Assembly (NCBI GenBank): GCA_002683655.1
Contig: NYTS01000003.1
Span: forward strand, 20,764 to 61,115
DNA from: Deltaproteobacteria bacterium
Lineage (GTDB): Bacteria; SAR324; NAC60-12
Direction of reading: 5' to 3'
DNA: 40,352 nt
The position numbers were made by a program, and so were the translations under genes. Shown here one piece after another: positions 33,383 through 35,060 of the stretch. How positions within the stretch are numbered: position 1 is the stretch's first letter; every line of letters begins with the position of its first letter. Under the pieces are notes generated by a model, which saw only the letters and a list, made by a program, of their open reading frames with translations, ran no database searches and was not told where the DNA came from.

Positions 33383-34207
33383 TCAAAAAATAGTTTCTCC
33401 AATCCCATGCTTTTGTGGTGCTTTTTCATAAAGTGACTTGGTTTCAGAGAGCCATTGAGAGAGTTGCTGCTTGCGATTTTCATTGCTGGGATGGGTAGAC
33501 ATAAATTCTGGACCACCTTTGCCACCCGTCGCCTTGGCCATACGTTCCCAGACTTCAATCGCCTCTGCTGGATCATAACCAGCCTTGGCCATGTAGATTT
33601 GACCTATACGATCAGCATCGGTCTCGTCATCACGACTAAACTTACGCTCAAAGAAAGCTAATCCCATCGCACCGGCGGCTCCCCCAATCGTTGCGAGAGC
33701 CTTGCACTCCTGCGATTCACAGTAGAATTCTGCGGCCAGCACTGCGATTCCAGCCACTGCAGCGGTTGCTAGCTGATTTTCGATAGCTTGTGCGTACCCA
33801 TTCATTCCATGACGTCTAGTGGCGTGAGCAACTTCATGACCGATCACTGCTGCCAAAGCGCCCTCGGTCTTTAGGACTGGGAGGATTCCCGTGTAGATCG
33901 CCATCTTGCCTCCTGGCATACACCAAGCGTTGAGTTCAGGACTCTCGATCAGCTCGATCTTCCAGTCAAAAGGCTCACCGGAAGCTTTCGCAATCCGCAT
34001 TCCTACCCGTTTGACCATTTCTACCAAGCGCTTGTCTTTGGAAAGCTTCGATTCTGCGATGACTTGCCGATAAGACTTGTTGGCTTCGAGGTTGATACGT
34101 TTTTCATCCACGGTGTCCGGTGCCAAGGTCCGTACTACTTTGCCAGAACAGCCAACCAACATTAGGCCGGTAATTAATCCGATGATCATTCTCTTCAACA
34201 TTTTCAT
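33383..34207 (-). CDS. M48 family zinc metalloprotease lipoprotein
   Basis: A 274-residue protein. The signal sequence ends with a lipobox LVGCSG (Cys20), so it is anchored by lipid to a membrane, as in the LoiP/YcaL group. The zinc motif is HEVAH (124-128) in AAVIGHEVAHATRRHG, and the third ligand Glu195 lies in DDETDADRIG. Such proteases handle outer-membrane or envelope protein quality control under stress. Two internal Cys (FYCESQECKA) may form a disulfide. The gene is monocistronic and diverges across a 575-base spacer from the tandem mini-proteins at 34783. Start ATG 34207 could equally be the internal Met3, a small difference. Confidence 0.9.
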   Translation of the reverse strand: MKMLKRMIIGLITGLMLVGCSGKVVRTLAPDTVDEKRINLEANKSYRQVIAESKLSKDKRLVEMVKRVGMRIAKASGEPFDWKIELIESPELNAWCMPGGKMAIYTGILPVLKTEGALAAVIGHEVAHATRRHGMNGYAQAIENQLATAAVAGIAVLAAEFYCESQECKALATIGGAAGAMGLAFFERKFSRDDETDADRIGQIYMAKAGYDPAEAIEVWERMAKATGGKGGPEFMSTHPSNENRKQQLSQWLSETKSLYEKAPQKHGIGETIF

Positions 34208-34782
34208 TTTTCTCTGAAGGGGAAGCGAAGGTGAGGATGAACTAGGAATTTCTCAAACTAAGACAAATTCATTGATATGACAAGATTGGGTTTGCGCAAT
34301 TAAAGCGAATAGACAGGTCTTTTTTTCGGATAGAAAGACAATGCTCAAATTCAAAATTTAGAAGGTAAGTTCAGATCTTGGTTTAACCCTGAATTCTAAG
34401 TAAACCAACCCAATTCCTAGAATGTAAATCCGTTCAAAAGAGAGTGGTGATCCATTAAAGACTTCATCAAAGGTTTTATTGCTTTGCTTACTGCCATCTC
34501 AATTTTTGGATACAGATGTATTTATAAATTTGCACCTCGCTTCCGATAGAATTTAATAGAATCTGTCATCTCTGAAAGTATGCTTTGGGCGCAAACAAGA
34601 TTTGCTTAAGGAATAGCTAAGGTCTAAATCCCCAAACACAGACCCCTAACGATGGCTAGTTTTTTAGATTGTTCCCAAATATTCAACTTAGATAGATTTG
34701 GAAAGGTTTTTGCTTGATACAGTTTTATCTTATTTCTCTTCTAAAAAACTTGTTGACCAAATAACAAGGAAACGAGGATGCG
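34208..34782. other. Long intergenic region between M48 gene and mini-protein pair
   Basis: About 575 A+T-rich bases. I see no convincing gene. A 33-codon hydrophobic open stretch (34451-34546) lacks a normal start. The divergent promoters of the M48 gene and the pair at 34783 must lie here, but no clear boxes stand out. The GAGGA ribosome binding site of the first mini-gene is at 34775-34779. Confidence 0.35.
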
Positions 34783-34914
34783 ATGAAAATAATTCTATTC
34801 TGTGGCACTTTGCTAATCTTAGGATTGCAAGCTGGTTGTACTAAAACCTGTTCTGAAAAGCACTGGTTTGACGGACGCGCTTTTAGCGAGTGTGTGAGAC
34901 TTGGTGGCGGATGA
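34783..34914 (+). CDS. Tiny exported Cys-rich protein, tandem copy 1 (43 residues)
   Basis: A 43-residue protein. A short hydrophobic leader (IILFCGTLLILGLQAGC) resembles a signal sequence ending in a lipobox-like LQAGC, although a Gln at -3 is atypical. The mature part is CTKTCSEKHWFDGRAFSEC followed by VRLGGG. It is preceded by GAGGA at 34775. The last four bases are the start of copy 2 (ATGA at 34911-34914). Copy 2 shares a core of 13 identical residues (EKHWFDGRAFSEC) with only synonymous differences at five codons, which strongly supports both as real genes. I recognise no family. Three cysteines in the mature part could form a disulfide plus a lipid anchor. Confidence 0.8.
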   Translation: MKIILFCGTLLILGLQAGCTKTCSEKHWFDGRAFSECVRLGGG

Positions 34915-35060
34915 AGATTATTTTCTTCGCTGTACTTCTGATGCTGTCATTGCAAGCTGGATGCACAAAGAATTGTGCAGAAAAACACTGGTTTGACGGG
35001 CGTGCTTTCAGCGAATGTTTGCGATTAGTTGATAAATATGATTGGACAAGACGCTTGTAG
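34911..35060 (+). CDS. Tiny exported Cys-rich protein, tandem copy 2 (49 residues)
   Basis: A 49-residue protein: leader MKIIFFAVLLMLSLQAGC, mature CTKNCAEKHWFDGRAFSEC, then a basic/acidic tail LRLVDKYDWTRRL that copy 1 lacks. Its ATG overlaps the stop of copy 1 (ATGA), so the two are translated from one message. The lipobox-like site (LQAGC) and the C-x3-C and terminal Cys pattern are the same as in copy 1. Together they look like a duplicated envelope mini-protein. No enzyme motif is visible, and the function is unknown. Confidence 0.8.
   Translation: MKIIFFAVLLMLSLQAGCTKNCAEKHWFDGRAFSECLRLVDKYDWTRRL

Follow-up and report, generated by a model that had tools for sequence, protein, structure and literature searches.

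Two very short open reading frames, placed end to end on the forward strand of a 40,352-nucleotide stretch of bacterial DNA (the window), raise the question of whether they are genuine genes and, if so, what kind of protein they specify.

Two overlapping frames under selection on protein

ORF1 (positions 34783-34914; 43 aa) and ORF2 (34911-35060; 49 aa) share an ATGA stop/start overlap (34911-34914, forward strand) that is present in the alignment of all five genomes carrying the pair, and that likely couples the translation of the two frames. The complete product of ORF1 is MKIILFCGTLLILGLQAGCTKTCSEKHWFDGRAFSECVRLGGG, divided into a predicted signal peptide, MKIILFCGTLLILGLQAG, and a mature part, CTKTCSEKHWFDGRAFSECVRLGGG; that of ORF2 is MKIIFFAVLLMLSLQAGCTKNCAEKHWFDGRAFSECLRLVDKYDWTRRL, with MKIIFFAVLLMLSLQAG and CTKNCAEKHWFDGRAFSECLRLVDKYDWTRRL as the corresponding parts. 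The two proteins are paralogues with 78% identity over 40 residues (BLASTP, E 1e-22), and a core of 13 residues, EKHWFDGRAFSEC, is identical in both. Within this core, the codons of ORF1 and ORF2 differ at five third positions, all synonymously: Lys AAG/AAA, Gly GGA/GGG, Arg CGC/CGT, Phe TTT/TTC and Glu GAG/GAA.

The tandem pair, its frames intact and its ATGA overlap preserved, was found in five of the six genomes of the genus (its own genome and the relatives searched), and its recurrence in five species rules out chance ORFs. Selection was evaluated by re-placing the observed nucleotide changes at random and counting the codons whose amino acid changed. For ORF1, the comparison of G025 with G026 gave four such codons against 12.7 expected, none of 4000 shuffles yielding a count as low, and three changes were observed against 10.5 expected between G026 and G023. 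The corresponding figures for ORF2 were 17 against 24.3 (G000/G026; P about 0.00025) and 16 against 25.5 (G025/G026), the close pair G027/G023 not being significant alone (P 0.10). This deficit occurs in frame 0 of both ORFs and is absent from the two other frames. Pairwise dN/dS is about 0.02-0.12 for ORF1 (pairs with a defined dS) and 0.13-0.32 for ORF2, which places ORF1 under the stricter constraint. Pairwise identity is 0.67 and 0.70 at third codon positions, compared with 0.95 and 0.90 at second positions, and conservation in the five-genome alignment ends sharply at the stop codon of ORF2. Both ORFs are coding and evolve under purifying selection at the protein level, in the annotated frame only.

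An earlier note on this DNA had described two ORFs of this size joined by an ATGA, with an exact common core and only silent third-position differences, and had taken them as real genes under purifying selection on protein. Its description of the sequence was accurate, and its conclusions on the genes and on the selection were correct; the frame-0 deficit, the low dN/dS and the occurrence in five species bear them out. The contrary signs that it named (frameshifts, stop codons, an excess of amino-acid changes) were looked for in the five intact loci, and none was found. Its statement that the ORFs belong to no known family also stands, but its remark that they are too short for ordinary gene callers was overstated, since common callers take genes from about 90 nt.

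A chromosomal locus confined to one genus

Searches of the genomes of the phylum and of GTDB contigs returned no relative of the pair beyond the genus, and a profile search found it in none of the 46 other genomes of the phylum. Viral contigs, phages and plasmids contained no match either, hence no hint of a phage or plasmid gene, and Pfam, NCBIfam, PHROGs, PADLOC and PDB yielded only sub-threshold, mutually inconsistent matches, none of them significant. The profile matches outside the genus had E values of 0.001-0.1 and were rejected as chance: those in G002, G008 and G016 lie inside a conserved long ORF resembling TldD, and those in G022, G038, G039 and G029 are unrelated or contain stop codons. 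The pair is therefore a small orphan family, confined to one genus of uncultured bacteria. The sixth genome of this genus, G024, has no copy of the pair; its assembly is 68% complete and is also devoid of the genes on either side of the pair, those for the M48 protease and the enolase-family protein, so that a true loss was rejected and this genome is uninformative on the pair.

In a nucleotide tree, the ORF1 copies and the ORF2 copies form separate clades (support 99/99), pointing to a single duplication older than the split of these species. The locus comprises, in order, a PilZ protein, a molybdopterin oxidoreductase, an M48 lipoprotein protease, the pair, an enolase-family protein and a dehydrogenase. 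This order is common to the other genomes of the genus up to contig ends, except downstream of the pair in G027, and marks the pair as a vertically inherited chromosomal locus. In G027 (contig C276; L019:4479-4688), the conserved order is abandoned just downstream of the pair and gives way to an ORF that looks like the N-terminal part of an IS1-type transposase and has no Pfam match. The adjacency of the M48 protease is not evidence for a common task, because the entire region is syntenic. This peptidase (window 33383-34207) has an ordinary lipobox, LVGC, and is 94-96% identical inside the genus and about 33% identical to the nearest proteins in the family's other genera; like the pair, it is genus-restricted.

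A third, partial copy is present in the genome that contains the window (G000:C2:11864-11992; L016:4856-5010) as a 155-bp match with 84% identity. ORF1 is followed in it by six codons, the first ones, of ORF2; the hydrophobic core has gained Pro and Arg, the lipobox reads QAQC instead of QAGC, and the copy is most likely a decaying duplicate. The integrase and reverse-transcriptase RNase H domains encoded on another contig of this assembly (G000:C65; L089:2-1321) belong to a Ty3-type retroelement, and are probably eukaryotic contamination.

A conserved block on the forward strand, 33-107 bp 5' of the pair (34676-34750, ends approximate), is a candidate promoter region. Mean pairwise identity across the five genomes is 0.87 at 34670-34750, a conservation equal to that of the two genes, versus 0.68 farther upstream and 0.59 downstream of ORF2. 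The block has a single full copy in its own genome and is probably the pair's own promoter. It contains TGGAAAGGTTTTTGCT (34699-34714, forward strand), a sigma-54-like -24/-12 element of the form GG-N10-GC whose GG and GC are invariant in the five genomes, with the consensus TGGAA(A/G)G(G/C)TTTTTGCT. The spacing is fitting and a sigma-54 gene is encoded in the genus; nevertheless, the pattern is not enriched genome-wide in the genus (18 versus 16 in the reversed control), and the assignment of this putative sigma-54 promoter element is therefore tentative. A sigma-70 scan of the block gave no match. GAGG stands a few bases 5' of ORF1 in most genomes, Rfam had no match at the pair, and the fold of the 5' leader is unremarkable (z -1.2).

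Export signal, conserved core and competing readings

All ten proteins begin with Met-Lys, followed by a hydrophobic stretch and a Cys at residue 18-19, as lipoprotein signal peptides do. A lipobox-like Gln-Ala-Gly-Cys occupies codons 16-19 of ORF1 (34828-34839) and 15-18 of ORF2 (34953-34964), both on the forward strand; its Gly-Cys is invariant in the ten-protein alignment, and its Cys is presumed to carry the lipid anchor in both proteins. Set against the pattern [LVI][ASTVI][GAS]C, the residues at -2 (Ala, Ser or Thr at position 16 of ORF2), -1 (Gly) and +1 (Cys) agree, whereas -3 is Gln in all ten. This Gln, which lies outside the usual lipobox, speaks against lipoproteins, and QAGC after a hydrophobic residue is absent from all other exported-looking ORFs of the same genome. 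Ala, Ser or Thr suits position -2 of a lipobox, and Thr is poor at -1 of a signal peptidase I site; signal peptidase II thus fits the invariant Gly-Cys better, and both proteins are likely lipidated, judging from these residues. The gene for this peptidase, lsp (PF01252), scores above cut-off in five of the six genomes of the genus, including the one that contributed the window. The signal peptide and the atypical Gln at -3 that the earlier note pointed out were recovered in every protein, and its view that they are lipidated is probably right.

The positions common to the ten proteins (ORF2 numbering) are M1, K2, L10, L12, Q15, G17, C18, T19, C22, E24-F33 (EKHWFDGRAF), E35, C36 and R38; the invariant Cys are thus three, C18, C22 and C36. 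They delineate a Cys-x-EKHWFDGRAF-x-E-Cys segment at 34849-34893 in ORF1 and 34974-35018 in ORF2 (forward strand). The ORF1 protein stops shortly past this core, and a conserved tail, DKxDWTxRL, is found in ORF2 only. Lipidation of Cys18 would leave an even number of Cys (two) in the mature part, able to pair, and these may form one disulfide. The AlphaFold model consists of two helices predicted with low confidence (pLDDT 60, pTM 0.25), and therefore lends such a loop no structural support.

We consider it rather probable that the two genes form an operon for tiny lipoproteins of the envelope, ancient paralogues that are co-translated and closed by one disulfide. A single mRNA starting in the upstream block would carry both ORFs, and re-initiation at the ATGA would translate ORF2, resulting in matched amounts of the two proteins. 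Following Sec export, Lgt and Lsp would lipidate them and cleave between Gly and Cys, releasing lipopeptides of 25 and 32 residues that the +2 rule of E. coli (Thr, not Asp) would direct to the outer membrane. A Cys22-Cys36 disulfide would then close a loop displaying EKHWFDGRAF, and the two lipopeptides would be partners in the envelope, with a layout like that of entericidin-type tandem small lipoproteins. The same presence and order in five species, the two well-supported clades and the conserved upstream block are consistent with such an operon, and the decayed third copy, in which both the lipobox and the hydrophobic core are broken, is consistent with lipoproteins. The more ambitious version is doubtful: the pair would found a new family, restricted to one genus, of outer-membrane lipopeptides that occur in twos, are looped by a disulfide and have a -3 Gln lipobox, and that serve the envelope as an obligate two-component element, either as partners or as an antidote pair, under a dedicated, possibly sigma-54 promoter.

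By layout, the nearest known system is the entericidin pair, homology being absent. EcnA and EcnB of E. coli (PF08085), 41 and 48 aa long against 43 and 49 aa here, are lipoproteins encoded by paralogous genes in tandem; in both systems, a signal peptide precedes some 20-32 mature residues, and the tandem arrangement of small paralogous lipoprotein genes is an entericidin trait that the pair shares. However, entericidins have neither a second Cys nor EKHWFDGRAF, and ecnA and ecnB are 110 bp apart whereas the genes of the pair overlap. The Entericidin profile, above cut-off for E. coli EcnA and EcnB, did not match the pair up to E 10, and a profile comparison reached a probability of 5% in the signal peptide region only; membership in this family was rejected. 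An opposed pair, in which one lipopeptide would be membrane-active or lytic and the shorter paralogue its antidote, would accommodate the likeness in layout, the stricter constraint on ORF1 and the tail restricted to ORF2, but it is quite unlikely given the missing sequence relation and a core that is identical, not opposed, in the two proteins. Moreover, whether EcnAB acts as toxin and antidote is itself a matter of dispute (PMC7296081), so that the analogy carries light functional weight.

Other readings concern the anchor and the cysteines. Cleavage by signal peptidase I between LQA and GC would produce secreted or periplasmic disulfide peptides bearing no lipid, and an uncut product would be a one-pass membrane peptide. 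The unusual -3 Gln and the short n-region with one Lys are in keeping with this, as is LQA itself, xQA being a frequent ending of signal-peptidase-I sites. We nevertheless hold it to be improbable, since the Ala/Ser/Thr followed by Gly-Cys suits signal peptidase II, an odd number of Cys would stay in the peptide, and the adjacent genes include none for peptide modification, a processing transporter or immunity. Were Cys22, His26, Asp29 and Cys36 ligands of a metal or haem and not part of a structural disulfide, the invariance of C22, H26, D29, E35 and C36 across the ten proteins would be explained; yet Trp, Phe, Gly, Arg and Ala show the same invariance, the adjacent genes include none dedicated to metal uptake and the AlphaFold model offers no structural support, making such envelope peptides very unlikely. 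Type I toxin peptides of the Hok, Ldr and Ibs kinds are likewise tiny, possess a hydrophobic stretch and are at times found in tandem. The pair resembles them in size and hydrophobic stretch, but differs by its stable core locus, its vertical inheritance and its conserved hydrophilic exported part, and it matched nothing in Pfam.

Significance of the pair

Among small-protein families of at least three members, more than half are genus-specific and about 94% are without a known domain (PMC11364881). Genus-restricted, domain-less small proteins being common, the general lesson is modest, although the pair differs from such families of the global microbial smORF catalogue (GMSC, PMC11364881) by its tandem duplicate, its strict common core and its export signal. 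It represents a well-supported case of coding genes overlooked by domain libraries: two exported proteins of 43-50 residues, sharing an invariant ten-residue motif, have been kept in five species. If they are lipidated, the accepted lipobox would widen to include Gln at -3.
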